From an uncultured Anaerofilum sp. (GTDB taxonomy: Bacteria > Bacillota > Clostridia > Oscillospirales > Ruminococcaceae): a stretch of 35,549 nucleotides of DNA. The first letter of the stretch is position 1, and each line of letters starts with the position of its first letter. The position numbers and the translations under genes were made by a program. Below the pieces are notes generated by a model. It had not been told where the DNA came from. It was given only the letters and a program-made list of their open reading frames with translations, and made no database searches. Where the stretch lies: contig CALWZD010000055.1 in assembly GCA_944385945.1 (NCBI GenBank), positions 1 through 35,549 on the forward strand, read 5' to 3'. Below, one piece after another: positions 4,203-24,211 of the stretch.

Positions 4203-4243
4203 ATTAAGGCAACACTGCAAAACGGTGTTGCCTTAATATTTTC
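4203..4243 (+). terminator. Strong hairpin between the GH112 and esterase genes
   Basis: A perfect 13-bp inverted repeat (4203-4215 with 4225-4237, core AAGGCAACAC/GTGTTGCCTT) encloses a 9-base loop and runs into a short TATTTTC tract. It sits 22 bases after the GH112 stop and about 27 bases before the next start. The U-tract is weak, so partial termination or 3'-end protection of the upstream mRNA is as likely as full termination. Confidence 0.6.
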
Positions 4244-4263
4244 AAGAAAAAAGAGGGAAGTAT

Positions 4264-5367
4264 ATGCAAATAGCAACCATCAGCGAATTGCCACAAGTAA
4301 AGGTGTTGGGAAGAATTGCAAGGCGCACCCAGCCACAGCCGCTTTTTTGGGCTGCAAGCGGATTGGATTTTGTGTTTAGCGGTAGCGAACTTTGGGTGCA
4401 GTTCGATGCATCGTTCAATGTTTTGGAGCCGTGGATCTGTGTAGAAGTGAACGGTGCATGGATTATGCGAATGCCGATTCTGGAAAAAGGGCAGTGGGTG
4501 TGTCTGTTGCGCAATCTTGCCCCCGGAGTGGAAAAACGAGTTCGCATTTTTAAGGATTGTCAGGCAATGAACGGGGATACCGAACACCTTTTAAGTGTAG
4601 TAGCACTGAAATGGGAGGACGGAGAGATATTACCCCCACCCGATGCAGATTTGAAAATCGAATTTGTAGGCGACAGCCTGACCAGTGGCGAAGGAACCAT
4701 TGGTGCTGTGCAGGAAACCGATTGGGTCACTTCCTTTTTCAGCAGTATGCCTTGCTTTACAAAGAAAACCGCCGATTTGGTAAATGCCGAGTTCTGCACC
4801 ATTTCGCAGGGTGGATGGGGCATTGCAGCCGGTTGGGACAATAACCCTGCTACTGTTATCGTGGATATTTACGACAAAGTATGTGCTTGCGCCAAAAGCC
4901 AACAGGCGATTTCACTGGGGGCTGGTGAACAAGCCGATGTGCAGGATTGGAAAGCAGATGTGGTAGTTATCAATCTGGGTACCAATGATTACAGTGGATT
5001 TTGCAATGAAGCATGGGTAGACCCCTACACCGGTGAACGGTATAAGCTGCACAAAAACGAAGACGGAAGCTTTGCCGAGCAAGACGCTGCATTGATTCGT
5101 CGAGAGATGGGCAGACTGCTGCGCAAGATCCGTGCATTGCATCCTGATGCAAAGATGGTTTGGTGTTATGGGATGATTCCGGGAGAACTGGCACCGCTGC
5201 TGCAACAAGGGCTTGCCCAATATCAACAGGAAACTGGAGATTTTTGCGATTTTTTACGCCTTGTTGAGGTCACCGAAAAAACGATGGGCGCACGGTGGCA
5301 CCCGGGTGCCGAGTGCCACGCACAGGCAGCGCAGCTGTTGGCTAATTGGATTCGCAGCCATCGCTAA
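4264..5367 (+). CDS. CE2-like SGNH acetylesterase
   Basis: 367 residues from ATG 4264, preceded by an AGAGGGA ribosome site. Residues 1-125 look like the beta-sandwich found at the N-terminus of CE2 esterases. The SGNH domain follows: FVGDSLTSGEG with nucleophile Ser138, SQGGWG with Gly184, NLGTNDY with Asn241, and RWHPGAECH with His346. No Asp stands in the usual place just before the His; known CE2 enzymes often work with a Ser-His dyad, so this need not mean loss of activity. Family members remove acetyl groups from plant oligosaccharides. There is no signal peptide. The gene lies between GH112 and GH35, which suggests it deacetylates imported oligosaccharides before they are cut. The exact substrate is unknown. 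Confidence 0.8.
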   Translation: MQIATISELPQVKVLGRIARRTQPQPLFWAASGLDFVFSGSELWVQFDASFNVLEPWICVEVNGAWIMRMPILEKGQWVCLLRNLAPGVEKRVRIFKDCQAMNGDTEHLLSVVALKWEDGEILPPPDADLKIEFVGDSLTSGEGTIGAVQETDWVTSFFSSMPCFTKKTADLVNAEFCTISQGGWGIAAGWDNNPATVIVDIYDKVCACAKSQQAISLGAGEQADVQDWKADVVVINLGTNDYSGFCNEAWVDPYTGERYKLHKNEDGSFAEQDAALIRREMGRLLRKIRALHPDAKMVWCYGMIPGELAPLLQQGLAQYQQETGDFCDFLRLVEVTEKTMGARWHPGAECHAQAAQLLANWIRSHR

Positions 5368-5421
5368 AACATAAGGTTGCAAAGCATTTCAATTAAAAAA
5401 CAAAAATAGGAGAAAACGGCG

Positions 5422-7662: not shown

Positions 7663-7728
7663 AAAAAGTATTTTTGCGATAGAGCGAATAAAAAGGAAGC
7701 CATACCCCAAACGGCGAAATTTGATTTC

Positions 7729-7758
7729 TTGACAGGTCAAAGAAAAGTTTGTTATAAT
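7729..7758 (+). promoter_or_regulatory. Sigma-A type promoter of the mutase/isomerase operon
   Basis: Consensus TTGACA (7729-7734) and TATAAT (7753-7758) are separated by 18 bases. Transcription would start near 7765, giving a leader of roughly 185 bases before the phosphohexomutase gene. Confidence 0.8.
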
Positions 7759-7764
7759 TTTCTC

Positions 7765-7948
7765 AATAGTATGTGTTTGTAAGGTCGTGTGTGAATCATG
7801 ATTCCTGCCGCAATGTTGAGAAATCAAAGCACGGTCTATGTGAGATGCACATAGGCTGTGCTTTTGCTTTACGACCGAAAATACGGCGAAACCCCTTGCA
7901 ATCCTTGCGAATACTGCTGTTTCAGAATGAAAGAGAGGACGAAAGCGT
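7765..7948 (+). promoter_or_regulatory. Structured 5' leader of the mutase/isomerase mRNA
   Basis: The leader contains an outer stem (7783-7789 with 7870-7876, core GGTCGT/ACGACC) that encloses a short palindrome (GAATCATGATTC, 7793-7804) and a long hairpin (7826-7842 with 7848-7864). The long hairpin is 17 bp including two G-U pairs, has an AGATG loop and is followed by TTTTGCTTT. The arrangement resembles a three-way junction or an attenuator. I do not recognise T-box, SRP, glmS, preQ1 or cyclic-di-GMP signatures. An overlapping open frame from GTG 7773 lacks a ribosome site and is not called. Confidence 0.45.
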
Positions 7949-9637
7949 ATGCAAGTGAAAGAAATTTTTGAACGCTGGCTGAATTTGGCAACCGAAGATG
8001 CAGATGTGGCAGCGGAACTGGTACAGCTGAAAGAAAAAGACGATGTAGACGGGATTCAAGACCGTTTTTATCGTGAACTGGAATTCGGTACAGGCGGTCT
8101 GCGTGGTGTGATCGGTGCAGGCAGTAACCGTATGAATATCTATAATATTCGCAAAGCGACACAGGGATTGGCAAATTATCTGAATGCGACCGATCTGCCC
8201 AAAAAAGTAGCGATCGGTTACGATAGCCGTATCAAAAGTGATGTATTTGCACGTGAAACGGCTCGTGTTTTGGCAGGCAACGGCATTACCGCCTTTTTGT
8301 ATCCCCGTTTGCAGCCCACTCCGGCACTCAGTTGGGCGGTACGCTACCAGCAGTGCGGTGCAGGTGTGTGCGTAACGGCAAGTCATAACCCTGCAAAATA
8401 CAACGGCTACAAGGTATACGGTGCTGACGGTTGTCAGATCACTTTGGAAGCTGCTGAAAAGATTTTGACACAGATCAACAGCGTGGATTGCTTCGACGAT
8501 GTAAAACGGGCAGATTTCGAAGCTGCTTTGCAGGCAGGTACTATTCAGTATACCTCGGAAGAATGCTTGGATGCATTCGTAGATGCTGTTTATGCACAGC
8601 GTGTAGGCAACGGCGAGGGGATCGAAGATTTGAATCTGGTCTATACCCCGTTGAACGGTGCTGGCTTGGAGTGCGTGAAAAAGTTGCTGGCTAAACTGGG
8701 CGTGACCCACTGCACCGTTGTTCCCGAACAGGAAAAACCCGACGGAAACTTCCCCACCTGCCCCTATCCCAACCCCGAGATTCGTGAAGCGATGCAAAAA
8801 GGTTTGGAGCTGTGCGAGCAGGTAAAGCCCGACCTGCTTTTGGGTACCGACCCCGACTGTGACCGCTGTGGTACAGCAGTACCCGACGGCAAGGGTGGTT
8901 ATCGCCTTATCAACGGCAACGAAATGGGAATTATTTTGTTGGATTACATCTGCCGTACCCGCAAAGCACAGGGAACCATGCCCGAACGTCCGGTAGCCGT
9001 TACCACCATCGTTTCCACCGATATGGCAACTCCGCTGTGTGAGAAGTATGGTGTAGAACTGCGTCGCACTTTGACCGGCTTTAAGTTTATCGGCGAGCAG
9101 ATCGGTCTGTTGGAGCAGGAAGGTCACCCCGAACGCTATATTTTCGGCTTTGAAGAAAGTTACGGCTATCTGTCCGGCGCACACGTGCGTGACAAAGATG
9201 CCGTAAACGCCACTTTGCTGATTTGTGAAGCAGCCGCTTGGTATGCAAAACAGGGCAAAACCCTGCTGGATGCCATCAATGCACTGTACGATGAATTTGG
9301 CTGGTATAAAAACGGTTTGCTCAGCTTTGCTTTCGAGGGCGAAAGCGGAATGCACACCATGCAGCAGCTGATGGCACGTCTGCGCAGCGATGCACCGAAA
9401 GAGATCGCTGGTCTGGCAGTCGAGTCGATCGTAGACTATTCGGCAGAAGGCACCGGTCTGCCCAAAGCAGATGTACTCGAATTCCGTTTGCAGGGCAACG
9501 CAAAATTCATGGTTCGTCCCTCCGGCACCGAGCCGAAAATCAAGGTATACCTGTCTGCTGTCGGCAGCAGTGAGCAAAAAGCAGACGAGATCAACGCTGC
9601 AATGGCAAAAGCTGCCGAGCAGCTGATGAAGCCCTAA
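7949..9637 (+). CDS. Phosphoglucomutase/phosphomannomutase (alpha-D-phosphohexomutase family)
   Basis: 562 residues, with AGAGAGG about 10 bases upstream. It shows all four active-site elements of the phosphohexomutase superfamily: the phosphoserine loop VTASHNP (Ser145), the metal loop DPDCDR (Asp301, 303 and 305; Cys replaces the usual Ala), the sugar-binding loop FEESYGY (401-407) and the phosphate-binding loop RPSGTEPK (523-530). Length and FGTGGLRG near the N-terminus match the PgcA-like bacterial branch, which interconverts glucose-1-phosphate and glucose-6-phosphate and sometimes mannose phosphates. In this locus it would take glucose-1-phosphate, made from galactose-1-phosphate by Leloir enzymes not present here, into glycolysis. 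It is co-transcribed with the following mannose-6-phosphate isomerase gene (34 bases apart). Confidence 0.92.
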   Translation: MQVKEIFERWLNLATEDADVAAELVQLKEKDDVDGIQDRFYRELEFGTGGLRGVIGAGSNRMNIYNIRKATQGLANYLNATDLPKKVAIGYDSRIKSDVFARETARVLAGNGITAFLYPRLQPTPALSWAVRYQQCGAGVCVTASHNPAKYNGYKVYGADGCQITLEAAEKILTQINSVDCFDDVKRADFEAALQAGTIQYTSEECLDAFVDAVYAQRVGNGEGIEDLNLVYTPLNGAGLECVKKLLAKLGVTHCTVVPEQEKPDGNFPTCPYPNPEIREAMQKGLELCEQVKPDLLLGTDPDCDRCGTAVPDGKGGYRLINGNEMGIILLDYICRTRKAQGTMPERPVAVTTIVSTDMATPLCEKYGVELRRTLTGFKFIGEQIGLLEQEGHPERYIFGFEESYGYLSGAHVRDKDAVNATLLICEAAAWYAKQGKTLLDAINALYDEFGWYKNGLLSFAFEGESGMHTMQQLMARLRSDAPKEIAGLAVESIVDYSAEGTGLPKADVLEFRLQGNAKFMVRPSGTEPKIKVYLSAVGSSEQKADEINAAMAKAAEQLMKP

Positions 9638-10664: not shown

Positions 10665-12506
10665 CTAACACACCCAACCGTCGTCGAATTCGTCCCAAAA
10701 CGGTTCACTGGGAAGATGGATGCAGACTTGGTTTTCAAAAAAGGGAATAGAGGAAAAGGTGATGTCTACATCTCCGTAAAATGCACACAGTCGGGAATAA
10801 ATATTGTTTAGTCCAATGTGGCGGTCGCTTTTGCCGTCCGGATGTTTGTTGTGCATGATTTGGTTTGCACGTTCGATGTCAATGCCGACACCGTTGTCGG
10901 TAATGCAAATCAGCAGTTCTTCCTGTGTAAGTTGCATCGAGATTTCCAGTTTTGGCAAAATTGGGTAGTTGCAATTTTTGTCGATCGAAAAACCGTGCTT
11001 TAAAGAGTTTTCCACAAGCGGCTGCAAGATGCATTTGGTGATTTTTTTATGGCGCAGCTGCTCGGGTACATCAATCACCACATGGATATTGCTGCTGAAG
11101 CGAGAACCCATAATGTCGATGTATGCCATAACGTGTTCCAGCTCTTGCGAGATGTAAAGCTGATTGTCCCCACAAGAGAGGGTGATACGGGTGAAATCGG
11201 CAAGGCTGGTGATCATTTTGGAAGCCGTTTCGCCGTGTCCCTGAAACACTTCCATATTGATAAACTCTAGGGTGTTGTATAAGAAATGCGGATTGATCTG
11301 TTCGGTCAACAGCTGCATTTCTGCATTGCGCTTTTCCACTTCTTCCCGCCGGATCTCCTCGATTTGGGTTTGGATCGTGCGGTACATGGATTGGATCGAC
11401 TGTTCCAGCTGTGCAACTTCGTCCTGTGTGTCGATTTGTGTTTTGCCGTCGTAACATCCCTTTTGAATGCTATGTACCACATTCATCAATCGCTGCAAGG
11501 GACGGGTGACGAACAGAGAGATAAGCAAACAAATCACCGTAACTGCTACGACACTGCTTACGGCTACGATTTGCAATACCCAGCGCAATGCATTGGCAGA
11601 AGAAGAAAATTTATCGACGGGTACGATATTTACAAGATATAATTCGGCAGAACGTATTTTGGAAAGATAAATATAGTTGTTTTTGTAATAAAAGCCGGAA
11701 TGCCCTGTTTTTGTGGATTCCACAAGTGTTTGTTGCAGGTCGGGATCGTTGTAATATTTAAAGTCGTTATTCGAATCCAGTGTGAGGCTGTTTCCTTCGT
11801 TATCAATCAAAAAAATCGTTCCCTGCGAATCGTCGTCACAATATAGTTCAAAGTATTCATTCACAACGTCTGCGTCCAGAAAGAGATAGAGGATAAAATC
11901 GCTTTGTTCGATGCTGTCGGAAATCAACAGTCTGGACGAATTGAACCGCAAAGGAATAACGAGTGGAAGCACATTGGCGTAGTTGCGAAACGGGCTTTCG
12001 GTGTTGGCAAGAAGGGTAAGACCGTTGACGTCTTGCAAATCGTACCCAAGGTCGTAGTCGGGATTGGGGTTGTGCAGCGTGAATGTATAGGGGGCAAATA
12101 CCATTGGCTGTCCATCGGTTCGACCGGTTTTGGAAATGATGGAAAATTGTACCAAATTGCTCATTTGGATATACTCACTTAACAAGTCCTGTGCTTGAAT
12201 GTTTGCGTATACATATTGTTCGGGAGTACAGGAAGCCAATACCTGATAAGTGTCTAAAAAGTCGATCGAAGAAGTTTTAAGTACAAATCGAACCAAAAGG
12301 TTTTCGTATGTTTCGGAAAATTTCGAACTGAGGGAATCGGTGTCCTGCTGCGCATTTTCGATGCTGCTTTTCAGCAAAAATGTGTTTACGTAAATAGATA
12401 AAAATATAATGATGAGCAAAAAAATGAAAAGTACCGGCACAACGGTAGCAATCCAGATTTTATAGGAAAGATGGGAAGAAAAAAATTTTTTGATTTGTGT
12501 AACCAT
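10665..12506 (-). CDS. YesM-like sensor histidine kinase
   Basis: 613 residues with a lone ATG start at 12506. Membrane helices lie at about 17-41 and 308-335, bounding a ~265-residue extracytoplasmic sensor region. A HAMP-like stretch (about 333-388) and the LytS/YesM His-kinase motif EQINPHFLYNTLEF (His407) follow. The ATPase domain shows LQPLVEN (Asn500), DNGVGID and IGLNNIYSRL. YesM-type kinases sense extracellular sugars or sugar-bound proteins and phosphorylate a YesN-type AraC regulator. The response regulator gene is 50 bases upstream on the same strand. The pair is divergent from the sugar importer, a standard layout for plant-polysaccharide loci. The sensed ligand is probably the oligosaccharide the importer carries. 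Confidence 0.93.
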   Translation of the reverse strand: MVTQIKKFFSSHLSYKIWIATVVPVLFIFLLIIIFLSIYVNTFLLKSSIENAQQDTDSLSSKFSETYENLLVRFVLKTSSIDFLDTYQVLASCTPEQYVYANIQAQDLLSEYIQMSNLVQFSIISKTGRTDGQPMVFAPYTFTLHNPNPDYDLGYDLQDVNGLTLLANTESPFRNYANVLPLVIPLRFNSSRLLISDSIEQSDFILYLFLDADVVNEYFELYCDDDSQGTIFLIDNEGNSLTLDSNNDFKYYNDPDLQQTLVESTKTGHSGFYYKNNYIYLSKIRSAELYLVNIVPVDKFSSSANALRWVLQIVAVSSVVAVTVICLLISLFVTRPLQRLMNVVHSIQKGCYDGKTQIDTQDEVAQLEQSIQSMYRTIQTQIEEIRREEVEKRNAEMQLLTEQINPHFLYNTLEFINMEVFQGHGETASKMITSLADFTRITLSCGDNQLYISQELEHVMAYIDIMGSRFSSNIHVVIDVPEQLRHKKITKCILQPLVENSLKHGFSIDKNCNYPILPKLEISMQLTQEELLICITDNGVGIDIERANQIMHNKHPDGKSDRHIGLNNIYSRLCAFYGDVDITFSSIPFFENQVCIHLPSEPFWDEFDDGWVC

Positions 12507-12556
12507 ACAAAATCCTTTCGGTGCGCTGTCTGCAAACGAGAAAAAATCTTAGCGGT

Positions 12557-14116
12557 CTAGCCTTGGTTTTGGTATTCGGAAGGGGTCATTCCGGTTTCGT
12601 TTTTGAACGCACGGGAAAACGAACGATAATCTTGGTACCCTGTCTGGTAGGCAATCTCGCTGATGTTTACGTTGTGGCTTTTCAGCAGCTGTTTGGCAAG
12701 CTGCATCCGTGCTTTTAACAGATAGTCACGGAAGTTGATACCGGTTTTGTCTTTGAAATAGACAGTAAAGTAACTTTCGCTTAGGTTGATATGTGCAGCA
12801 ACGTCTTTTGCTTTTAGGTTTGTACTTAAATTTTGTTGGATGTACTCTTTTGCGGATTGGATAATGGCATTTTGGTCGCCGGAGTTGTCTTTCAGCATTT
12901 CGCTATACTGAATGAAAAATGCCGTCATCCACCCTTGAATCGCTTCGACCGATTCCAGTGCGTTGATCTCGTCGTATGAAAAATCGAAAGAAACACTGCT
13001 GTCGGGCTGGGTGAGTGCTACCTGCTTTTGGGTGTTCAGAATCAGGTAAATGCACATACCGATCAAAAAGCTGGGCGGTGACATGGATTTGAACAAAAGC
13101 GAGCGGAAAAAGCCTTCGCAGTATTCTGCGATGCCATGATTATCGTGCTGAAGAATGCTGTCTACAAGCGGTGCAAAGTCGATGCTTTCACGGGAGAAAG
13201 CAGGCTTTTCCTTGCTGAACAGGCTGCTGTCAAAAATTTCGACGTTGGGGCGGTAGATGCGATAGGAAAGTGCCTCCAATGCACAGGAAAAGGATTTTCC
13301 GGCAGAGGAAAGGTCACGAACAGGGTCACCGAGTGCTACAAAAGCGGTGATGGAATGGGATTGCAGCAGTTGCATTCCCATGTGCAGCAGTTGCCGTACT
13401 GCATCGTCGGTGATTTGTGCGACATTGAACAAAACAGCGATCTGTGCTGATTCACACATCCAACTTTCTGCACCATACTTTTTGAATAAAGGACGCAAGA
13501 GTTTGCGTTCGATTTCCTCGACAGGGATGCAAAGATGGGTATCGGCACTCGGAAAAGCGTACACGGCAACACGACAAGCGGATTGTGTAATGTCCAACCC
13601 CAACGAACTGAGGCTGGTGGTGATGTAAGCAGAGTCGGCACGATTCTGGACCAGACGATTCAGAAATAAGGTGCGAGAAGAATCTACCAGCTGCGAAAGC
13701 GTTTCGTTGCTTTCGATTTGCTGATTGTGCTGCGCTTGGATCTCCTGACATTGCTGCAAAAAGACGGTGCGAAATTCGTCAATGTTCAACGGCTTGAGAA
13801 AATACGATTTGACACCGTAGCGGATCGCCGTTTGAGCATAGGAAAAATCTTCGTATCCACTTAAAATGAGAAAGCGTGTGGAAAGATTCTTTTGCTGTGC
13901 GTGTTGTATCACAGAAAGCCCGTCCATTACAGGCATATTGATGTCCATTACGGCGATGTCGATACGCATTGTAGAAAGTAGTTGCAAGGCTTCCATTCCA
14001 TTGGTAGCGCAGCCGGCAATTTCCAGCTCGATGGGCAAACGGGAAACCACTTCGCAAAGGCCCGTGCGAATGGCAGCTTCATCGTCTGCGATCAAAACGG
14101 TAAGCTTACCGGACAA
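12557..14116 (-). CDS. YesN-like response regulator with AraC DNA-binding domain
   Basis: 519 residues if started at TTG 14116, which has GAGGTGA (14129-14123) six bases upstream. The longer frame starts at GTG 14125, but that GTG is part of the same ribosome site. The receiver domain (about 1-120) has the acidic pair in IADDE and the phospho-acceptor in MDINMPVMDG (Asp58). A ~290-residue middle region as in YesN relatives follows. The C-terminal ~100 residues are an AraC double helix-turn-helix (motifs LKAKDVAAHINLSESYF and ISEIAYQTGYQDYRSFSRAF). It should activate the divergent importer genes and perhaps the enzyme blocks. ATGTTACATA repeats in the intergenic region are candidate sites. Confidence 0.93.
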   Translation of the reverse strand: MSGKLTVLIADDEAAIRTGLCEVVSRLPIELEIAGCATNGMEALQLLSTMRIDIAVMDINMPVMDGLSVIQHAQQKNLSTRFLILSGYEDFSYAQTAIRYGVKSYFLKPLNIDEFRTVFLQQCQEIQAQHNQQIESNETLSQLVDSSRTLFLNRLVQNRADSAYITTSLSSLGLDITQSACRVAVYAFPSADTHLCIPVEEIERKLLRPLFKKYGAESWMCESAQIAVLFNVAQITDDAVRQLLHMGMQLLQSHSITAFVALGDPVRDLSSAGKSFSCALEALSYRIYRPNVEIFDSSLFSKEKPAFSRESIDFAPLVDSILQHDNHGIAEYCEGFFRSLLFKSMSPPSFLIGMCIYLILNTQKQVALTQPDSSVSFDFSYDEINALESVEAIQGWMTAFFIQYSEMLKDNSGDQNAIIQSAKEYIQQNLSTNLKAKDVAAHINLSESYFTVYFKDKTGINFRDYLLKARMQLAKQLLKSHNVNISEIAYQTGYQDYRSFSRAFKNETGMTPSEYQNQG

Positions 14117-14484
14117 AAAAATCACCTCGTATCAAAAATTAAAGAACAAAATTGCCGGTACAGATAGAAGAAAACGTACCGACAAAGCTGTATTGGATTG
14201 GTTTTTTTCATTATAACACGAACTGTACGCAAAACCAACCACCTTAAAAAATGTTACATAAAAAGGAAATAAGCCAACGAAAAATTCATAATAGATGTTC
14301 AATATGTACAAAAATATACTGTTTTGTTTGTGGTTGTTTACTTATATACACGAAAATATCGTAAAAGATGTTACATATCTATGAAAAAGTGTCCTGTATT
14401 TTTCTGCAAAAAAACGGTAAGCTAAATACATCAGGAATGCGAGAGATTCCGGACAAACAACCAAGCAAGAGGGGAGAAAAAATT
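14117..14484. promoter_or_regulatory. Divergent control region between regulator and importer
   Basis: This AT-rich region carries no gene. On the minus strand a promoter for the regulator/kinase operon is visible: TTGGTT (14238-14233), 17 bases, TATAAT (14215-14210). Two exact ATGTTACATA copies, each containing an ATGT-T-ACAT palindrome, lie at 14251-14260 and 14368-14377. The left copy is just upstream of the minus-strand -35 and the right copy is about 108 bases before the importer start. They are candidate operators for the YesN-like regulator. A TATATACA stretch at 14343-14350 may be part of the plus-strand promoter, but I see no convincing -35. Confidence 0.55.
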
Positions 14485-15903
14485 ATGAAAAACGCACGCA
14501 ATCTGGGCATTAAAATTACCGCTGCTGCTTTGTCGGTAGGTGTACTGGCAGGCTGTGGTGCAAGCAGCTCCAGCACTGCTACCAGCACTTCCGGCGGTGC
14601 AGAAAGCACTGGCTCCAACGGTGATGTTACTACCATCGAAGTTTGGTCGAACAACCGTCACGACGAAGCTTACATGACCGAGGTCATCGAAAAGTTCAAC
14701 GCTGAAAACAGCGATGTTCAAATCAAGTACACCATTATGACCGACGACTACTGGAATTCCATCCAGCTGGCATATCAGGCAAACACTGCTCCTGATATTG
14801 CTGCAATCGCAGCATCGGACGGTATCGTTTTGAATGACTACGTAAACGGTGGAATGTTCGAAAGCCTCACTCCGTTTATCAACGAAGATGCCGAGTATCA
14901 GAAAGTCAACGAAACCGCCGACCATATGTACGAGGGCTTGAACTCCATCGGCGAAGACATTTACTGGGTGGCTTCGGGCGTTCGTTCGGGCAGCCGTATT
15001 CAGTACAATGTTGAAATGCTGAAAAACGCAGGCTACGAAACCTTCCCCACCACCTTTAGCGATATGGTAGCAGCTGCACAGGCTGTGACCGATCCCAGCA
15101 GCAACGTATACGGCATTGCTACAACTTCTTCTGCTCCGTTCGTACGTTGGCTGGAAGGCATCGGTGAGATGAGCGGTGCTGCTCATATGGGTTATGACTA
15201 CACCACCGGTACTTACGATTTCAGCAGCTGGAAGCCCGTTATCGAGGAGGCTGCAAAGCTGTTCACCAATGGCTCGGTTCTGCCCGGCTCCGAAACACAG
15301 GGCGTAGATAACGGTCGTGCATTGTTTGCACAGGGTGCATTTGCAATCTGGGGCAATGCTTCGCAGGAAGCAGGCGTATTCACCGAGCAGTTCCCCGTAT
15401 CGTTTGATTGGGGCGTAGCCGAGCTGCCCACTATGGACGGCGAAGTAAAGGGTGCGCTGAGCTGCACACCGAACTATGGTTACACCATGCTGACCTCCTG
15501 CGAGGACAAAGAGGCAGCTTGGAAAGTTATCAGCTACCTGCAGGGCGAAGAAGTTCTGAAAGGCTACTTCGAGGGCGGTTACAGCCTGCCGATGTCCAGC
15601 TATATGGCTGATCTGTACGACTCCAGCAAGGTTGGTCGCTTGGCAGATTTCGCTTTGACCGACTATGAAGATGTTTACCCCAGCACCCCCGCTGTTACCA
15701 TCGAAGGTGATGACTATCAGGTAACTTTGTGGAATGCAGTTATGGGCAATGTAAGTGTAGATGATGCAATTGCAGATTTGAACGAGCGTTATAATGCTGC
15801 TTTGGAGCGTGGTCTTGCAAACGGCAGCTGCACCCGTGTAGTGATTGCTGATTTCGATCCCATGAATCCTTCCGCAGGTACCGCTGAATACCTCACCGAG
15901 TAA
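14485..15903 (+). CDS. CUT1-family ABC sugar transporter, solute-binding lipoprotein
   Basis: 472 residues from ATG 14485, with AGAGGGGAG eight bases upstream; the 39-codon extension further upstream lacks signal features. The N-terminus is a lipoprotein signal, with a hydrophobic stretch (about 8-22) and lipobox VLAGC (Cys24), then a Ser/Thr/Gly-rich linker (25-46). The remainder is a family 1 extracellular binding protein: TTIEVWSNNRHDEAYMTEVI, KFNAENSDVQIKY, and late ALSCTPNYGY and SYLQGEEV elements. It should capture oligosaccharides outside the membrane and deliver them to the two permeases that follow. No ATPase gene is present; Firmicutes CUT1 systems commonly share one encoded elsewhere (MsmX type). 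Substrate is inferred from context as pectic or galactose/mannose-containing oligosaccharides. Confidence 0.93.
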   Translation: MKNARNLGIKITAAALSVGVLAGCGASSSSTATSTSGGAESTGSNGDVTTIEVWSNNRHDEAYMTEVIEKFNAENSDVQIKYTIMTDDYWNSIQLAYQANTAPDIAAIAASDGIVLNDYVNGGMFESLTPFINEDAEYQKVNETADHMYEGLNSIGEDIYWVASGVRSGSRIQYNVEMLKNAGYETFPTTFSDMVAAAQAVTDPSSNVYGIATTSSAPFVRWLEGIGEMSGAAHMGYDYTTGTYDFSSWKPVIEEAAKLFTNGSVLPGSETQGVDNGRALFAQGAFAIWGNASQEAGVFTEQFPVSFDWGVAELPTMDGEVKGALSCTPNYGYTMLTSCEDKEAAWKVISYLQGEEVLKGYFEGGYSLPMSSYMADLYDSSKVGRLADFALTDYEDVYPSTPAVTIEGDDYQVTLWNAVMGNVSVDDAIADLNERYNAALERGLANGSCTRVVIADFDPMNPSAGTAEYLTE

Positions 15904-15930
15904 TCTCTGAGGATTTATCTCGGATTGGCT

Positions 15931-15964
15931 GCCCGCCCTCGGCGTCCTCTGCTTGGGGGCGGGC
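15931..15964 (+). promoter_or_regulatory. GC-rich intercistronic hairpin after the binding-protein gene
   Basis: A 10-bp stem (15931-15940 with 15955-15964, core GCCCGCCC/GGGCGGGC) and a 14-base loop lie 27 bases after the stop codon. There is no T-run after it. Hairpins in this position typically stabilise the binding-protein mRNA so that it exceeds the permease mRNA. Confidence 0.65.
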
Positions 15965-15997
15965 AAAGAATGAGTTTAAAGAGGAGGAACAAACAGA

Positions 15998-16924
15998 ATG
16001 AGCAAACCAAAGGCAAAAGAAAAGTTCAGCTTTAAAAAATCGCTTGCAAACGGCGATGTTACCGCAATGGTCATGCTGATCCCCGCAGTGCTGATGCTTG
16101 CAGTCGTTTCCATTTATCCGTTTTTGTGGATGTTCCGCTATTTGATGTACGATTATAACGGCATGACGTCCTATTTTAGCGGCACCTATAACTTTACCCG
16201 AATGCTGGAGGACAAGATCTTTTGGGAGAGTGTAGGGCATACTTTCGAATATGCGGCTTTGAAACTGGTGTTCATCATTCCTTTGTCTTTGATCATGGCA
16301 GAGCTGATGGTGCAAAAAATTAAAGGCTCCGGCATTTTCCGTGTTATTTACTTTATGCCCACCATTATCTCCACAGCGATTTCTGCGTTGGTGTTCAGCT
16401 TCATTTTTGCAGCTTATAACGGCGTTTTGAATGCGGTGTTGCGAGCAACCGGCATCATTGACCAGAATGTTAACTGGCTGGGTGACAAAAATGTTGCAAT
16501 GTGGGCAGTTATCATTGTTGCGATTTGGGGCGGTTTTGGTAACTACATGATTTATTTCATGTCCGGTCTGTCCGGTATTTCCAAAGACGTGTACGAATCC
16601 GCAATGGTAGACGGTGCTTCTGGTTTGACTACCTTCTTCCGCATCACTTTGCCGATGCTCAGCCCCATGCTGAAGGTCATCCTGATGCTGGCGATCACCG
16701 GTGCATTCAAGGACTATGAGTCTATCATGGTTTTGACACAGGGTGGTCCCGACGACCGCACCCAGGTCATGTTCCTGTACATTTATCAGCTGATTTTTGG
16801 CACAGCGACCACTACTCCGCAGATCGGTTATGCTTGTGTTCTTAGCTTGGTTGCTGCTTTGATCGTGGGTATCGTTACTGCCGTCTATCTGCTGATTGCA
16901 AAGAAACTGGACGATGTTGTTTAA
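15998..16924 (+). CDS. ABC sugar transporter permease, MalF/UgpA type
   Basis: 308 residues, with AGAGGAGG upstream. Six membrane helices are apparent (first at about 24-44). The inner-membrane component motif near residues 197-225 (YESAMVDGASGLTTFFRITL) is the EAA loop that docks the ATPase. The N-terminus is a short Lys-rich cytoplasmic tail. It forms the channel together with the next permease and works with the lipoprotein encoded upstream. The next gene starts 17 bases downstream, so the two are co-translated. Nothing in the sequence sets the substrate. Confidence 0.94.
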   Translation: MSKPKAKEKFSFKKSLANGDVTAMVMLIPAVLMLAVVSIYPFLWMFRYLMYDYNGMTSYFSGTYNFTRMLEDKIFWESVGHTFEYAALKLVFIIPLSLIMAELMVQKIKGSGIFRVIYFMPTIISTAISALVFSFIFAAYNGVLNAVLRATGIIDQNVNWLGDKNVAMWAVIIVAIWGGFGNYMIYFMSGLSGISKDVYESAMVDGASGLTTFFRITLPMLSPMLKVILMLAITGAFKDYESIMVLTQGGPDDRTQVMFLYIYQLIFGTATTTPQIGYACVLSLVAALIVGIVTAVYLLIAKKLDDVV

Positions 16925-16941
16925 GAAAGGAGCATAGCATC

Positions 16942-17811
16942 ATGAAAAAATCTTCTGGCGAGGTAATGTCGACCGGTACAAGAATTTCCCGTGCGCTGCT
17001 ATTCTTGTTCATGCTCATCATTGCGGTGCTCACGCTGTATCCGGTTCTGTATGTTGTTTTTGGCTCCTTCAAACAAAATGCCGAGCTTTTGGTAGGTGGT
17101 ACAAATCTGCTGCCCAAAGTATGGAGCATTCAAAACTTTATCGACGCATGGAATGGTGCCGATTTTGGTGTGTACACCATCAACAGTGTTCTGCTTGCAG
17201 TTGGCGTTATGGTTCTGTCGCTGTTCAACAGCAGCATGGCAGGATATGTGTTCGCACGAAAAGAGTTTCCCTTTAAAAAGCTTTTGTATGGTTTGTTCGT
17301 AGCATTCATGTTCATCAATGTTGGTTCGGTTTCGCTGCGTCCGCTGTTTGAACTGGCAATTTCCTTGAACATGAATACTTCGCTCATCAGCGTTATCATT
17401 ATCTCCGCAGGTGGCGCACAGGCTACTTACATTTTCTTGGTAAATGGTTATATGCGTACCATTCCCAAGGAACTGGACGAGGCAGCTACCATTGACGGCT
17501 GCACCTTCTTCCAGATTTACTACAAGATCATTCTTCCGGTGCTGCGCCCCATCATGGCGACCGTTGCGCTGCTTTCCTTCCGTGGAGGCTGGAACGAATA
17601 CATCCTGCCGTTGGTATTTACCATGACCCAAGCTGAAAAACGCCCCCTGACCGTAGGTGTTACCATGCTGAAAAACGCAGGCGACGGTGCAGCTGCATGG
17701 AATATCATGTTTGCCGGTGCTACCATTTCCATTATCCCCATCTTGCTCATCTACATCTTCTCCAGCAAGCACTTCATCGAGGGCTTGACCGGTGGTGCAG
17801 TAAAGGGGTAA
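16942..17811 (+). CDS. ABC sugar transporter permease, MalG/UgpE type
   Basis: 289 residues, with GAAAGGAG before the start. It has about six membrane helices (first at about 13-34) and the EAA motif PKELDEAATIDGCTFFQIYY at about residues 175-194 for coupling to the ATPase. The C-terminus ends with FIEGLTGGAVKG, the usual ending of this permease type. It pairs with the MalF-type permease just upstream. A strong hairpin follows 45 bases after the stop, marking the probable end of the importer transcript or a partial stop before the NifU-like and mannosidase genes. Confidence 0.94.
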   Translation: MKKSSGEVMSTGTRISRALLFLFMLIIAVLTLYPVLYVVFGSFKQNAELLVGGTNLLPKVWSIQNFIDAWNGADFGVYTINSVLLAVGVMVLSLFNSSMAGYVFARKEFPFKKLLYGLFVAFMFINVGSVSLRPLFELAISLNMNTSLISVIIISAGGAQATYIFLVNGYMRTIPKELDEAATIDGCTFFQIYYKIILPVLRPIMATVALLSFRGGWNEYILPLVFTMTQAEKRPLTVGVTMLKNAGDGAAAWNIMFAGATISIIPILLIYIFSSKHFIEGLTGGAVKG

Positions 17812-18180: not shown

Positions 18181-21100
18181 ATGGCATTTGTTCAGGTGGT
18201 GCGCAGAAGTATGCGTCCCGAAGAATACACCGATCTTCGTTTCAACTGGTTGAAGCGTTACATTTACAAAGAGAAATACGAGATCACCGATTTGGTCGTG
18301 CGTGACGCACGTCAGCTGACCGAGGACACCTATCTGGATTCCCCCGAGGGATTCCGCCCTTTGCGCAAAGGCGATTTGTACTTTACGCCCGACGGAACCG
18401 CATTTTTTGAAGCAAAAGTAACGGTTCCCGAGCATCTGCGAGGACAGGAACTGTGGCTGTCGATGTGGACTGCTGCCGAAATTATTGTAAAAGTGAACGG
18501 GCATTACGTTGGCGGTATCGACCCCAACCGTGACCGTATGCTGTTGCCTGCACTCAACGGTAACAATGAGCTGTTTATCGAGATGGAGGGCTACAACCGC
18601 TCCAAGCCCGATGACGAGCGCAACCCCGACTCGATGCATCTGCGTGGATGCCGTCAGGAGTTCCAAGGGCTGTACCTTTCGACCATTCGTCACGACGTTC
18701 TGGATCTGTTCTACGATTTGCAGCTGCTTTTGGACGTTGCCAAAAGCGATTATTTCAACGAGGATTACCGCAAATTCCTCAATCGTGAACTGAGCCTTGC
18801 GCTGAACAATATCGACTTTGATACACTGCGTGAAAATATGTCGCCGGAAACCGGACTGCTGGATTTGACCGACGAGCAGGAGGCAATGCTGCATCAACAG
18901 GTAGGGCAGGCATTGAAGTACATCGAAGATGTCATCTATGCAAACGACGATTTCAAAGGCACAGGCGATGTTGCAGTGGTTGGTCACTCGCACCTCGACT
19001 TGGCTTACTACTGGAGAAGGATCCATACCGTACATAAAAACGCACGTACTGTTCTTATCCAGATGCGCTTGATGGACCAGTATCCCGAATACCGCTACAC
19101 CCATACCCAAGCGTACACCTACGAACTGTTGGAAAAATACTATCCCGAACTGTTCGAGGAACTGAAAGAAAAGGTTGCTTCCGGCAACTTTGAGCCGACC
19201 GGTGCAATGTATGTAGAACCCGATTGCAACGTTCCTTCGGCAGAAAGCCTGATTCGTCAGTTCCTGTACGGTCAGCACTACTTCCGTGAAAAATTCGGTA
19301 AGACCATCCGCAACTGCTGGTTGCCCGACGTATTCGGCAACAGCTGGATTTTGCCCCAGATCATGAAAAAGAGCGGTGTCGATTATTTTGTTTCCAACAA
19401 AATGTCCACTTGGAACGACACCAACCGTTTCCCCCACAATAACTTTATCTGGAAAGGCATCGACGGCAGCGAGGTATATGCTTGCGTACCGCCCACCCAC
19501 TTCATCACATGGAATATGCCCAGCCAGATTCAGGAAAACTGGGAAGCATATCAGGACAAGGAAACCGGTGGACAAACCCTGTCTATGTTCGGCTACGGCG
19601 ATGGCGGTTCCGGTGCGACCGAAGAAATGATGGAGCTGATGCGCCGTTTTGATAAACTTTCGGTGATGCCCAAGGTAGAGCACGTAGGTGCAGAAGAATT
19701 CCTGAGCAAAAACTTCGACGGCAACACCAAACTGGAAACATGGGACGGCGAACTGTATCTGGAGATGCATCGTGGTACCTTTACCACCAAGATGGATTTG
19801 AAAAAAGCAAACCGTGAGCTGGAGTTTGCTCTGCGTGATTGCGAATTGCTTTCGGTCGTGCGCAAGATGGCAGGCGAAGATTTCGATGCCGATGCATTCC
19901 GTGCAACCTATAAAAAATTCTTGCTCAACCAGTTCCACGACATTTTGCCCGGCAGCCATATCCACCCTGTCTTTGAGGATGCAATGGAAGACTATGCAGC
20001 CGTTCGCAAAGCGGTAGAAGATTACCGTGGAACCGGCAATCGTTGGTTCAATACCCTCAACTTCGAACGCAGTGCGCCCATTTTTGTACCGGATGAAAAG
20101 GGTGCGCTCCGTCGCTGTGGACAGCAGGGCCGTTTTGTGCAGCCGCACATTCCTGCATTCGGTACCGCAAGCGAACTGGCTGGCATGAAAGAAGTTGCCG
20201 GCTGGCTGAAGGTAGACGGCTTGAAAGTAGAAACTCCGCTGTATCAGGTAGAATTTGATGCCGACGGTAGCATTTTGCATCTGTACGACAAGCAGTTGGA
20301 GCGTGAATGGGTAGACGGTGTATGGAACAAGCTGCATTTGTATCAAGACCTGCCCGGAACCTACGATGCATGGGACATTCTGCCCAACTACAAGGAAAAA
20401 GAACTGACCCTGAACACTGCTTCTGCCTTGACCAAGACCTATGAAGATGATTCTGTGGCAGAGTTTATCAGCGTCATCACCACCGATAAGAGCGTTTGGA
20501 AACGCATCATCCGCCTGTTTGCTGACAGCCGTATGATCGAGGTAGAAAACGTTGTAGATTGGCACGAAACGCACAAACTGGCAAAGGCAGAGTTTGGTAT
20601 GAACATCCTCAGCCGTGAATTGGTTTGCGATACAAGTGCCGGCTTTATCCGCCGTGAAACTCATCGCAATACCACTTGGCAGAAAGCACGTTTTGAGGTC
20701 TGCTCGCATAAATGGTGCGATATGTCCGAAACCGACGCAGGTGTTGCACTGATGAACGAAGGCCAGTACGGTGTGGGCATCGACGAAAACCACATCACCC
20801 TCAGCCTGTTGCGTGCTACCATGCGTCCCGACATCACTTCCGACCGTGGTCACCACGAGTTCTGCTATCAGATCCTTCCTCACGAGGGCAACCATGTACA
20901 GGCTGGCATCAACCGCTTTGCAATGGAGCAAAACGTACCTCTTACCCAGCCGCAGCTGCCCGCAGAAATTCCTGCTGCACTGAGCAATCTGTTCAAAGAT
21001 TTGGAGAACGCCGGCAAGCGTCTGATGCTGCAAGCGATCAAGTGGAGCGAGGACGGCAAAAAGATCATCGTTCGTTTGTCCGAGCAGGATGGTCGCCGTG

Positions 21101-21228
21101 GAACGCTGAAGCTGAACAGCAGCGTACAGCCGGTTAATATGTTGGAAGATGCTTGTGGAGAGGCTGTAAGCGAGATCGCATACAAGCCTTTCGAGATCAT
21201 CAGCTTTGCATATGACCTGAACGCATAA
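18181..21228 (+). CDS. GH38 alpha-mannosidase
   Basis: 1015 residues, with an AGGAGG site. An N-terminal ~250-residue region includes a beta-sandwich (LWLSMWTAAEIIVKVNGHYV). The GH38 catalytic domain follows: VVGHSHLDLAYYWRR (metal ligands His271 and Asp273), WLPDVFGNSW with the nucleophile Asp383, then GYGDGG. A helical bundle and large C-terminal beta domains come after, with the FLLNQFHDILPGSHI element (His used in metal binding) near residue 590. The enzyme would hydrolyse terminal alpha-mannosides in the cytoplasm, with Zn or a similar metal. No signal peptide is visible. It follows the importer and the NifU-like gene, so it could use the same imported sugars. It fits with manA upstream for mannose catabolism. 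Confidence 0.94.
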   Translation: MAFVQVVRRSMRPEEYTDLRFNWLKRYIYKEKYEITDLVVRDARQLTEDTYLDSPEGFRPLRKGDLYFTPDGTAFFEAKVTVPEHLRGQELWLSMWTAAEIIVKVNGHYVGGIDPNRDRMLLPALNGNNELFIEMEGYNRSKPDDERNPDSMHLRGCRQEFQGLYLSTIRHDVLDLFYDLQLLLDVAKSDYFNEDYRKFLNRELSLALNNIDFDTLRENMSPETGLLDLTDEQEAMLHQQVGQALKYIEDVIYANDDFKGTGDVAVVGHSHLDLAYYWRRIHTVHKNARTVLIQMRLMDQYPEYRYTHTQAYTYELLEKYYPELFEELKEKVASGNFEPTGAMYVEPDCNVPSAESLIRQFLYGQHYFREKFGKTIRNCWLPDVFGNSWILPQIMKKSGVDYFVSNKMSTWNDTNRFPHNNFIWKGIDGSEVYACVPPTHFITWNMPSQIQENWEAYQDKETGGQTLSMFGYGDGGSGATEEMMELMRRFDKLSVMPKVEHVGAEEFLSKNFDGNTKLETWDGELYLEMHRGTFTTKMDLKKANRELEFALRDCELLSVVRKMAGEDFDADAFRATYKKFLLNQFHDILPGSHIHPVFEDAMEDYAAVRKAVEDYRGTGNRWFNTLNFERSAPIFVPDEKGALRRCGQQGRFVQPHIPAFGTASELAGMKEVAGWLKVDGLKVETPLYQVEFDADGSILHLYDKQLEREWVDGVWNKLHLYQDLPGTYDAWDILPNYKEKELTLNTASALTKTYEDDSVAEFISVITTDKSVWKRIIRLFADSRMIEVENVVDWHETHKLAKAEFGMNILSRELVCDTSAGFIRRETHRNTTWQKARFEVCSHKWCDMSETDAGVALMNEGQYGVGIDENHITLSLLRATMRPDITSDRGHHEFCYQILPHEGNHVQAGINRFAMEQNVPLTQPQLPAEIPAALSNLFKDLENAGKRLMLQAIKWSEDGKKIIVRLSEQDGRRGTLKLNSSVQPVNMLEDACGEAVSEIAYKPFEIISFAYDLNA

Positions 21229-21237
21229 AATCATACC

Positions 21238-21314
21238 ATACAGGAAAGCAGTGTTGAACCATCCTCTTTCCTGTATGCAAAAGTGTGGGAGTGATGGTGC
21301 TTCCGCACTTTTGC
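21238..21314 (+). terminator. Two tandem hairpins after the mannosidase gene
   Basis: Hairpin one has an 11-bp stem (21238-21248 with 21266-21276, ATACAGGAAAG/CTTTCCTGTAT) and a 17-base loop. Hairpin two has a 9-bp outer stem (21277-21285 with 21306-21314, GCAAAAGTG/CACTTTTGC) with further partial pairing inside. They abut with no gap. No T-run follows, so termination is likely but not certain. Confidence 0.55.
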
Positions 21315-21326: not shown

Positions 21327-21356
21327 TTGTCAAATATCCAAGCTATATGATACAAT
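21327..21356 (+). promoter_or_regulatory. Promoter of the unrecognised-enzyme/KdgF operon
   Basis: TTGTCA (21327-21332), an 18-base spacer and TACAAT (21351-21356), about 65 bases before the start codon. It separates this two-gene unit from the mannosidase transcript. Confidence 0.65.
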
Positions 21357-21421
21357 AATTTCCGACAGAAGCTGCATCCTGCCTTGTGCAGCGGTGCCTT
21401 CGAAGCAGGAGGAAAATGAAT

Positions 21422-23851
21422 ATGAAATTTTCATTACACAACAATGGATTTATAACGCACTTTCTTACCACAGGAAAAAAAGAATCTGAATTTGCTACCA
21501 ACGAACAGGACAGCAATCAGCTGCGTTTCGAGCAAAAGCTGCGTGCAAGTGCTGCACAGCACACGCCTTTTGCCCCACCTGCATTGGAAACTCTCTGCCC
21601 TGGCAAACAAAGTCCGTTGGGACAGCCGTGGAAATACTACTATTCTCACGAAAACGTATTTTTAGACGATTCTTCGTTTTATATCGAACTGTGTCGTGTG
21701 GAACTTCATGCGGTGACAGGATTATATGCAGAACAAGACACAACGGTTACTCTGCGCTTGTGGAGTTACGCTGCCGCCGATGTATGGCTGAACGGTGAAT
21801 TGGTATGCACCATCGACAAACCTGTGTATAAACCAGTGCAGCACAAAGATTTTCAGGTACAGCTCAAAAAAGGCAACAATGCTGTGTACATCCGTTTGGA
21901 AACGATGGGCGTTCGTGATACTCATACCGCTTGTGCCTTGCAGGTGCTGCAAGGTGCAGAGCAAGTGCAGGTAGAACTGCCTTGTCAGGAGGGCTTGCAG
22001 CCGTATGAAGCCGCAGCAGAATTGCTGGATTCGGCACGGTTGGAGCAGGGAACGCTGCTTTTAAAAGGCACTTTGCCCGAAAACAGCACCATCGTTTATG
22101 ACACAGGCACCTGCGATTTCCGTAAATGGAACGAAAAATTCCTGTCAGTAGACGTTTCGGGAAAAAGCAGTGTCGAGCTGCAACGATATGCATGGCTGAC
22201 CTTGAAGATAAAAGTCGGCGAAACAGTGATGCAGCGTCATTTAGAGCAGGTAGAATTGCGTGTGCCGAACTATCTGAATACAACGCAGAAAAACAATCGG
22301 GAAACTGTTTTTGCAAAAATCGCCGAAGTTGCCTCGCTCATTCGAGAAGAAACCGATGGATTTGCCCTTTATCCCATGTTAGCACGTCGTTATCTGGGAC
22401 AGGACACAGAGGCTGACCGTGAGGAATTGAAGGTGACGCTGGAGCAGATCGAACGCCGTATGGACTGCGCCGACTTTATGACCTGCGCATTGGTTCGTCT
22501 GATGCGAGCCTACGGTGTGCCGGAGGAGATAAAACCGGAGATCCGCCGTGTGATGCTGAATTTCCGCTATTGGATGGACGAGCCGGGACAGGATTGTATG
22601 TGCTTCTGGAGCGAAAACCATACCTTGATGTTCTATCAAACTGCCTACTTCTTTGGCGAGGAATATCCCGACGACATTTTCGTGCGTTCTGGAAAAACAG
22701 GGCGTGAGATGCGTCAAGAAGCTCGTGAACGCCTGAAAGAATGGTTTGCAGATGTCAACGAAACCGGATTCGACGAGTTCAACAGCGGTGTATATTCGCC
22801 CATCACGTTTGCGGTGATGCTGAACATCGTTGACTATGCCGAAAAGGAACTTGCCGATGCAGCATGGAAAGCTTGCGATCAGCTGCTGCGCTGTATGTGC
22901 CGACACTACTTTAAAGGCATCGTGGTTTCCCCACAGGGACGTGTTTATCGTGGTGTACTTTATCCGTGGGCAGAATCTTTGCAGTCTTTGGTGCAGTTGG
23001 TTCGTCCTGAAGCACCGTATGTATACAGCGAGTGGCTCATCGCATTGGCGACCAGTCGCTATCAACTGCCCGAAAAAATGCAGGAATGGATGGACGAAAC
23101 AGGGGATGCTCAGTATAGCAGTGGCAATGCCGTCATCGACCTGTACAAAACGGGCGAGTATATGCTGACCAGTGTACGATCGCCTCGCCGTGACGGGGTA
23201 GAGCGAGTATGGCAGCGAGAAGAACGTGAAGAAATGAGCAAACATTTCAGCTATGTGAAATCGCTGAACGAACGTTTCCACGGTACTACTCAGATACAGC
23301 CGGGCGTGTTGGGGTATCAGCAGCATCTGTGGTATGCAGCACTCGACACCGATTTGATTGTTTTTGCAAACCATCCCGGTCAAAGCTGCGAGGCACTCAC
23401 CGAAGTTCGCCCCGGTTACTGGTTCGGCAACGGCACGATGCCGGCGTTGCGACAGGAAAAACAGGTGCTGGGGGCTGTGTATTCGATTCCGGACAGCGAC
23501 CCCATCCATTTCACCCACCTGTATTGGAATAGCCGAAAATTTGAGCAGATCGCAGAAAATGGAAACTGGTTGTTTGGTAAAAAAGGCGATAGTTATATCG
23601 GCGTTTGGTGCAGCCTGCCTCTTGTCGACCATGACGACATCGTGTTCGGCTGCGAAAAACGAGCATACGGCAGCCAGTGTGCTTATTTGGTGGTCTGCGC
23701 AAGCAAGCAGGAGATGGGCAGCTTCGAAGACTTCTGTACAAAAACGCAAAACAGAGAGGTTCGCTTCGACACCGAATCCAATACACTTTGCTGTGACGAA
23801 TTTAAGCTTGTATTCGTACCACATAGCAATCCGACCCAAATTTTAGAATAA
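21422..23851 (+). CDS. Unrecognised large protein, candidate carbohydrate-active enzyme
   Basis: 809 residues from ATG 21422, nine bases after AGGAGG (21407-21412); ATG 21416 is too close to that site. I cannot place it in a named family. Residues about 1-290 are beta-rich, with a sugar-enzyme-like stretch (AAADVWLNGELV). About 295-600 is alpha-helical with conserved-looking aromatic motifs: WSENHTLMFYQTAYFFG (about 396-412), GFDEFNSGVYSP (about 449-460), then GRVYRGVLYPWAESLQ. This resembles an alpha/alpha toroid. From about 600 to the end it is again beta-rich (VLGYQQHLWYAAL, YIGVWCSLPL). This order resembles several polysaccharide lyases (PL8/PL15/PL17/PL21 layout) and toroid glycosidases. 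No signal peptide is seen. It shares an operon with a KdgF-like gene 15 bases downstream, which suggests a role with unsaturated uronic acids. This is an inference only. Confidence 0.8.
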   Translation: MKFSLHNNGFITHFLTTGKKESEFATNEQDSNQLRFEQKLRASAAQHTPFAPPALETLCPGKQSPLGQPWKYYYSHENVFLDDSSFYIELCRVELHAVTGLYAEQDTTVTLRLWSYAAADVWLNGELVCTIDKPVYKPVQHKDFQVQLKKGNNAVYIRLETMGVRDTHTACALQVLQGAEQVQVELPCQEGLQPYEAAAELLDSARLEQGTLLLKGTLPENSTIVYDTGTCDFRKWNEKFLSVDVSGKSSVELQRYAWLTLKIKVGETVMQRHLEQVELRVPNYLNTTQKNNRETVFAKIAEVASLIREETDGFALYPMLARRYLGQDTEADREELKVTLEQIERRMDCADFMTCALVRLMRAYGVPEEIKPEIRRVMLNFRYWMDEPGQDCMCFWSENHTLMFYQTAYFFGEEYPDDIFVRSGKTGREMRQEARERLKEWFADVNETGFDEFNSGVYSPITFAVMLNIVDYAEKELADAAWKACDQLLRCMCRHYFKGIVVSPQGRVYRGVLYPWAESLQSLVQLVRPEAPYVYSEWLIALATSRYQLPEKMQEWMDETGDAQYSSGNAVIDLYKTGEYMLTSVRSPRRDGVERVWQREEREEMSKHFSYVKSLNERFHGTTQIQPGVLGYQQHLWYAALDTDLIVFANHPGQSCEALTEVRPGYWFGNGTMPALRQEKQVLGAVYSIPDSDPIHFTHLYWNSRKFEQIAENGNWLFGKKGDSYIGVWCSLPLVDHDDIVFGCEKRAYGSQCAYLVVCASKQEMGSFEDFCTKTQNREVRFDTESNTLCCDEFKLVFVPHSNPTQILE

Positions 23852-23866: not shown

Positions 23867-24211
23867 ATGGAGAAACAGCATCAAGGTCAGCAGTGGGTAC
23901 CCCACGCAGAAATTCAGGCAGAGCCGGCAGGCGAGGGCGTTGTACGTCGTGTCATGGCATATTCCAAAGATGCGATGTGTGTGGAAAACTGCTTTGAAGA
24001 AGGCGCAGTAGGTGCAATGCATAGCCACCCCCACACCCAGATCACCTACGTTGCATCGGGACGTTTTCGTTTTACCATCGGCGAGGAGACCCGTGAAGTC
24101 AGTGCAGGAGATACCCTTTTAAAAGAGAACGGCGTAGTGCATGGCTGTGTCTGCTTGGAAAAGGGCATTCTGGTGGATTTCTTCACCCCCATGCGTGAAG
24201 ACTTCGTTTAA
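23867..24211 (+). CDS. kdgF: KdgF-like cupin, unsaturated uronate ring-opening protein
   Basis: 114 residues, with AAAGGAG upstream. It is a single cupin domain: motif one MHSHPHTQITYVASG carries His52, His54 and Gln58, and motif two ends with VVHGC (His92). This HxH...Q...H metal set matches KdgF proteins, which speed conversion of 4,5-unsaturated galacturonate or related monomers to the linear ketouronate in pectin and alginate breakdown. The surrounding pattern (VMAYSKDAMCVENCFEEG, SAGDTLLKENGVVHG) is typical of the family. It is the second gene of the operon with the unrecognised enzyme and closes the sugar region before a strong terminator. Product formation from GH105-type or lyase enzymes would supply its substrate. 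A plain cupin of another role cannot be excluded. Confidence 0.85.
   Translation: MEKQHQGQQWVPHAEIQAEPAGEGVVRRVMAYSKDAMCVENCFEEGAVGAMHSHPHTQITYVASGRFRFTIGEETREVSAGDTLLKENGVVHGCVCLEKGILVDFFTPMREDFV

Follow-up and report, generated by a model that had tools for sequence, protein, structure and literature searches.

What does the long protein encoded beside a KdgF-like cupin in this Anaerofilum contig do? The window (the whole 35,549-nt stretch of DNA analyzed) carries its gene at 21416–23851 on the + strand: the start ATG is at 21416 or 21422, AGGAGG lies immediately 5′ of it, and the frame stays open up to the stop at 23851, for a product of 809–811 aa. This is no chance ORF, because full-length relatives of 51–59% identity exist. 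The original prediction had placed an enzyme-like protein at 21422–23851; those coordinates hold, and the three motifs quoted there, GRVYRGVLYPW among them, are present in the translation. A single copy was found in its own genome (assembly 80% complete).

Setting of the gene

On the + strand the gene is preceded by an ABC sugar importer (14368–17811), whose solute-binding protein (14368–15903) and two permeases (15998–16924 and 16942–17811) were recognized by Pfam, and by a GH38 alpha-mannosidase (18181–21228; Pfam and PDB matches), which also lies directly upstream of the target in locus L003. It is followed by a cupin gene (23867–24211, +) that had been predicted to be KdgF-like. Pfam and PDB searches bear this out, with phmmer matches to cupin 7zyb (E 5e-28), to the 'pectin degradation protein' entries 5fpx and 5fpz (about 5e-18) and to the solved KDGF 5fq0 (7e-16); matches to 5fpx, 5fpz and 5fq0 together span E 5e-18 to 1e-15. 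KdgF had also been called the only operon partner; that part is not upheld, as the importer and GH38 genes upstream, on the strand of the target, are likely partners too.

Two adjacent hairpins (21237–21314, +; RNA fold z −6.7, with 0/200 shuffles as good) separate GH38 from the target. Lying 3′ of them is a promoter-like site, TTGTCA-18-TACAAT with TG before the −10 (21327–21356, +), recognized by consensus match only. The scanned stretch held four such sites against 4.0 expected from shuffles, no excess. A putative promoter of the target's own is plausible here.

A family new to the libraries searched

No family could be named in the original prediction, and Pfam, NCBIfam and PDB sequence searches all likewise left the target unrecognized. 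Its best Pfam match, in a list extending to E 1, was DUF4268 at E 0.11, under the cut-off of that model; NCBIfam gave no match, and the best PDB E-value by phmmer was 0.48. When 33 varied members were scanned singly (the window row and five second-branch rows trimmed), the best E-values were 0.0028 in Pfam (Pentapeptide_3) and 0.034 in NCBIfam, each from one member and to an unrelated family. We rejected DUF4268, Pentapeptide_3 and the best NCBIfam match as stray, all being below cut-off or single-member. PDB searches with profiles of 9, 33 and 33 sequences reached E 0.44 at best, and with the limit at E 10 none of the chains matched was a lyase. The heparinase II/III models PF16889 and PF07940, the GH88/GH105 model PF07470 and PF10022 (DUF2264, which from its motifs we take to be GH154) gave no match, either to the target (list limit E 1) or to the 33 members (limit E 0.1). 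Literature searches found no paper on the family, which has no name to search by. The family is new to Pfam, NCBIfam and the PDB; a toroid-type beta-eliminase in an unsaturated-uronate operon is a known kind of enzyme.

With the target protein as query, members were found in 7 of 297 genomes of its own taxonomic family (one, G273, by the N-terminal part only); in its genus, one of the four genomes carries a member. These and the following counts include the window's genome where it is part of the set. A nine-sequence profile matched eight genomes when run across the phylum (398 genomes; three of the eight matches weak and partial), and 45 when run on a Bacillota family with large genomes, probably Paenibacillaceae (245 genomes). 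Of those 45 matches, 35 scored above 400 bits and the others below 70 bits; the five low-scoring ones that were fetched form a second branch, termed A4. Close relatives of the target are in L003 (59% identity), L017 (55%) and L002 (52%). A plasmid collection searched with a distant member gave 200 matching records, including 123 from Rhizobium, 40 from Pseudosulfitobacter, 12 from Sinorhizobium and 3 from the archaeon Haladaptatus; with the window protein itself it gave 199. Three scans of viral contigs found no relative. The family therefore spans Bacillota, alphaproteobacterial plasmids and one haloarchaeon, and it is labeled hypothetical protein in all eight annotated plasmid regions that we opened.

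Gene neighborhoods

The neighborhood is the strongest line of evidence on function. The survey covered 36 members from 35 loci: the window, L002 and L003 plus six, four and twenty-two further loci. Loci whose match was below 300 bits (L023, L037, L067–L071) were left out; of the 35 strong matches in the large-genome Bacillota, 23 were fetched with wide flanks. The loci are partly non-independent, several coming from near-identical species. Neighbors were labeled with profiles built here and checked with Pfam for GH88 in L018, L019, L080, L082 and L090, for heparinase in L072 and L073, and for the cupin in the window, L017 and L088.

In 13 of the 36 members a GH88/GH105 gene sits no more than 300 nt away, in the orientation of the target. 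At that distance and orientation KdgF was found in seven, always as the next gene downstream, heparinase II/III in five and GH38 in two, so the predicted linkage to kdgF recurs in other genomes. KdgF and GH88 never occurred together within the same 9 kb among the 36 members. Neither was within 9 kb in 15 members, some of them on short contigs; two of these have, among the matches listed, a GH88 gene that the ORF filter missed, 149 nt away in the case of G814:C34 and about 1.2 kb away in that of G922:C67. Since GH88 numbers 0–19 per genome in 29 genomes, we estimate the probability of chance adjacency at well under 1%. Solute-binding proteins were present in 29 of the 35 loci, and permeases likewise in 29.

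In a 42-member tree, the KdgF-linked members together with those of L002 and L003 formed one clade of nine, with support 1.0. In five loci of this clade the operon consists of heparinase II/III, target and KdgF in that order, and GH88 is absent from the surrounding 9 kb. L002 ends at a contig edge, and in L003 a ROK kinase gene comes next after the target.

Plasmids gave a similar setting. Ten regions picked for variety were opened, eight annotated and two without annotation. GH88/GH105 was found in seven of the eight annotated regions, that is, in all seven bacterial ones (adjacent to the target in four, one gene away in two, about 6 kb away in one), KduI and KduD in four of the eight, and GH28 in all three annotated Rhizobium regions. 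The Haladaptatus region was without GH88/GH105, KduI, KduD and GH28; all it offers is a heparinase II/III gene at a distance of about 8 kb. The Shinella and Gemmobacter operons run GH88, kduI, target, importer, kduD. No lyase is listed in these two operons, in a gene table that is itself incomplete, which leaves the eliminase step unfilled there.

Conserved residues and domain layout

Conservation was scored in 42 sequences, the 33 members plus nine from plasmids, three of these being near-identical Rhizobium proteins. Sixteen residues are invariant in 42/42: D348, C349, D351, F352, E398, N399, H400, F420, G427, W441, E452, Y458, R507, Q633, P674 and H699. Among them, N399-H400 (22616–22621, +) is a candidate carboxylate neutralizer or acid/base, Y458 (22793–22795, +) a candidate catalytic acid/base, and the C-terminal H699 (23516–23518, +) a candidate second catalytic His; E452 (22775–22777, +) and R507 (22940–22942, +, in the motif GRxY) are equally fixed. 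The Asn-His pair and Tyr458, both proposed earlier as active-site residues, are thus upheld. Tyr405 and Tyr409, proposed along with them, are Tyr in just 11/33 and 22/33 members and were dropped.

The original prediction of a helical region flanked by beta parts was borne out by structural models, for the C-terminal part at very low confidence. The N-terminal beta part (residues 1–289; 21422–22288, +) resembles PA14/CBM35/GH2-type domains in Foldseek. The helical middle (residues 290–566; 22289–23119, +) was modeled with 12 helices at pLDDT 74.1 and pTM 0.79, with confidence dropping under pLDDT 50 at 454–456 and immediately ahead of N399; its helices make an alpha/alpha toroid likely. The C-terminal part (residues 567–809; 23120–23848, +), expected to be a beta-sandwich, had very low model confidence and aligns with the second branch. 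A full-length AlphaFold model from three sequences was poor (pLDDT 51.8, C-terminal part very low), and we discarded it for fold identity, its top matches being only sugar-binding or accessory beta domains and their carriers.

The N-terminal part is absent in 10 of the 36 members (612–750 aa), whose match begins at profile position 245 or later; the family core is therefore the helical plus C-terminal part. A4 aligns to the family across this whole core (hhalign 100%, E 2e-44), and in the joint set E398, N399, E452, Y458 and R507 are invariant in 33/33 rows. Four of the five A4 proteins have extra domains (fn3, Big_2, SLH, CARDB, LamG-like) and, by eye, look secreted. Leu replaces the His of the ENH motif in two multidomain relatives (L070 and L071), which may be inactive or work differently.

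Comparison with toroid enzymes

Heparinase II/III-like lyases (PF16889 plus PF07940; PL12, PL21; related PL15, PL17, PL35, PL39) have, like the target, a helical part followed by a C-terminal part. They share with it Asn(-His), then a Gly and, nine residues on, a Tyr that lies about 54–59 residues past the Asn(-His), and they are its operon partners in five loci (Pfam-checked in two). In lyases of PL35 and PL12, according to PMC12088678, the triad consists of Asn, a Tyr 54 residues further along and a C-terminal His, and in PL8 the arrangement is another one. In our family the order is N399-H400, Tyr 58–59 residues later, and a C-terminal His; Asn/His then Tyr sit on the helical domain in heparinase order, in a register seen in the hhalign alignments. 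The heparinase II/III partner proteins found here carry N183-H184 and Y237. Unlike these lyases, the target has a gap of 58–59 rather than 54 residues, an E452 one position off the heparinase Glu, an extra N-terminal domain, and no Pfam or significant direct profile match.

Profile comparison with 24 heparinase II/III proteins gave the family scores of 24–25.3, which 1/60 and 2/60 shuffles equaled (hhalign 0.5–0.7%), and gave A4 39–40, which 0/60 shuffles equaled in either of two runs (hhalign 24–26%), pairing NH with NH and Tyr with Tyr. With ten GH88 proteins the scores were 31.3 for the family and 33.1 for A4, each with 0/60 shuffles as good, although for the family the hhalign probability was only 4–6%. 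A profile tie specific to heparinase was rejected, since GH88 scores equally well against shuffles. Against 25 DUF2264 proteins the family and A4 stayed near shuffle level (4/40 and 1/40 as good), so kinship with GH154/DUF2264 is unsupported. We read the profiles as suggesting a weak and unspecific kinship with toroid uronate enzymes in general. It is the residue pattern, not the profile score, that points to a beta-eliminase.

Foldseek with residues 290–566 gave no significant match among the best 50 of 376 matches. The first was the PL33 hyaluronan lyase BT4410 (8r72, 8r70; E 0.22, TMq 0.35), which has no sequence match to the target; PL33 then PL39 ranked first among enzymes in the same best 50 of 376, with unrelated helical proteins interspersed. 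TMq values there were 0.47 for PL35, 0.42 for the unrelated complement C4b, and 0.40 for both GH88 3wux and 9o4u. The last, the glucuronate dehydratase BcGDH (formerly GH154), shares with the target the order Asn-x, Tyr, Arg, Tyr and the co-localization with GH88/GH105; it is shorter and has no sequence or profile link. The GH88/GH105 unsaturated uronyl hydrolases are themselves helical toroids in the same pathway and frequent neighbors of the target, with no Pfam match to it.

Proposed activity and alternatives

The prediction of a cytoplasmic oligo-uronide lyase or unsaturated-uronyl hydrolase is supported in its uronate direction by the GH88/GH105, KdgF and KduI/KduD neighbors; its hydrolase option is weaker than the lyase, because 13/36 members already have GH88/GH105 next door. 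Our own reading, to which we give even odds, is that the target is a cytoplasmic uronate beta-eliminase of an unnamed family, most likely an exo-acting oligo-uronide lyase. No signal sequence was seen by eye, which suggests the cytoplasmic location; we also infer catalysis, the residue roles, the substrate and exo action. Such an enzyme would combine a toroid-like helical domain with the C-terminal part and, in long members, an N-terminal sugar-binding-like domain. The ABC importer would bring in uronic-acid-containing oligosaccharides. Asn399/His400 would hold the uronate carboxylate while Tyr458 and the C-terminal His (H699), with R507 assisting, remove the C5 proton and expel the C4 substituent, leaving a product with a 4,5-unsaturated uronyl end. 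GH88/GH105 would then release the unsaturated uronate, to be processed onward by KdgF, KduI and KduD; in the window, GH38 would probably trim mannose off the same oligosaccharide.

A uronate dehydratase would give the same neighborhood, by taking water off a saturated non-reducing-end uronate with no glycosidic cut and so making a GH88/GH105 substrate. We think this rather unlikely but take it seriously as a rival, for it has two unrelated precedents in enzymes paired with GH105 or GH88: P29_PDnc (PMC8511951) and BcGDH (PMC12269599). BcGDH requires Asn176-Asn177, Tyr229, Arg285 and Tyr289 (PMC12269599), an order that N399-H400, Y458, R507 and mostly Y509 of the target follow, and 9o4u is among the structural matches noted above (best 50 of 376). 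BcGDH is, however, only about 385 aa, whereas our family retains a C-terminal part in which Q633 and H699 never vary; nor do its profiles link to DUF2264 or its sequences match 9o4u. We prefer the lyase because of the conserved C-terminal part with its His and the residue spacing. The history of GH154 may serve as a warning against that preference: its members counted as hydrolases up to the time when BcGDH turned out to be a dehydratase, the clue being frequent co-localization with GH88/GH105 (PMC12269599).

The five KdgF-clade operons with heparinase II/III and no GH88 nearby leave a place for a different enzyme, an unsaturated-uronyl hydrolase outside GH88 that would remove lyase-made unsaturated uronate and feed KdgF directly, and the slight resemblance of the family profile to GH88 above shuffles fits this too. 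It is nonetheless improbable: such an enzyme would be redundant beside the GH88 next door in 13/36 members, the invariant residues are identical in the GH88-linked and KdgF-linked groups, and GH88 genes exist elsewhere in the genomes of the window and of G089, with 3–17 apiece in the other five KdgF-linked genomes for which a count was made. Still more doubtful is a role in uronate oligosaccharide metabolism as some other glycoside hydrolase, or as a sugar-binding protein without catalysis. The lack of a significant fold or sequence match to any lyase family and the resemblance of the N-terminal part to sugar-binding domains speak for it, but a non-enzyme would hardly explain sixteen invariant residues, several catalytic in kind, across bacteria and an archaeon.

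Returning to beta-elimination, we consider it fairly probable that a new uronate beta-eliminase family of Bacillota, alphaproteobacteria and a haloarchaeon supplies the missing step between import and GH88/GH105, as lyase or dehydratase, where loci list no recognized polysaccharide lyase, and that the KdgF-coupled clade of the window has changed its downstream partner. If so, a hypothetical protein of 200 plasmid records (mostly rhizobia) and of gut- and soil-type Bacillota would make imported acidic oligosaccharides usable, would be the founding member of a new family of lyases or dehydratases, and would explain operons that have GH88/GH105, KduI and KduD yet no listed lyase. As to substrate, GH28 in rhizobia points to pectin-like chains and GH38 in the window to mannose-containing ones; xanthan may be a further candidate. 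By eye, NagA-like and NagB-like genes (L017:5472–7397) lie a few genes from the target in L017, hinting at an amino-sugar-containing substrate there.

Further observations

Four GH88 matches above cut-off, two of them strong, are on other contigs of the window's genome, so the GH88 step is available to this organism. The start of the window itself apparently falls within a GH88 gene, at its C-terminal end (1–201; match at 3–149, 25.1 bits against a cut-off of 26.6). At 99.5% identity, this 201-base stretch recurs at the end of another contig of that genome, C21, so that both contigs carry an end that is either repeated or was split in assembly.

A cluster with GDSL esterases, a lacto-N-biose-type phosphorylase (GH112), GH35 and phosphoglucomutase occupies 169–9634 of the window. 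It is followed on the − strand by a histidine kinase and an AraC-type response regulator (10668–14125), divergent from the importer and likely its regulator. The GH38 protein (18181–21228) is 1015 aa long, with about 260 residues ahead of its catalytic domain, and its best PDB matches are Ams1-type alpha-mannosidases.

Two tandem family members were noted at L035:7165–11319. In L023, among sugar-importer permeases, a 198-aa ORF (L023:7639–8235) matches the N-terminal domain of the family only, and is possibly a remnant or a free-standing domain.
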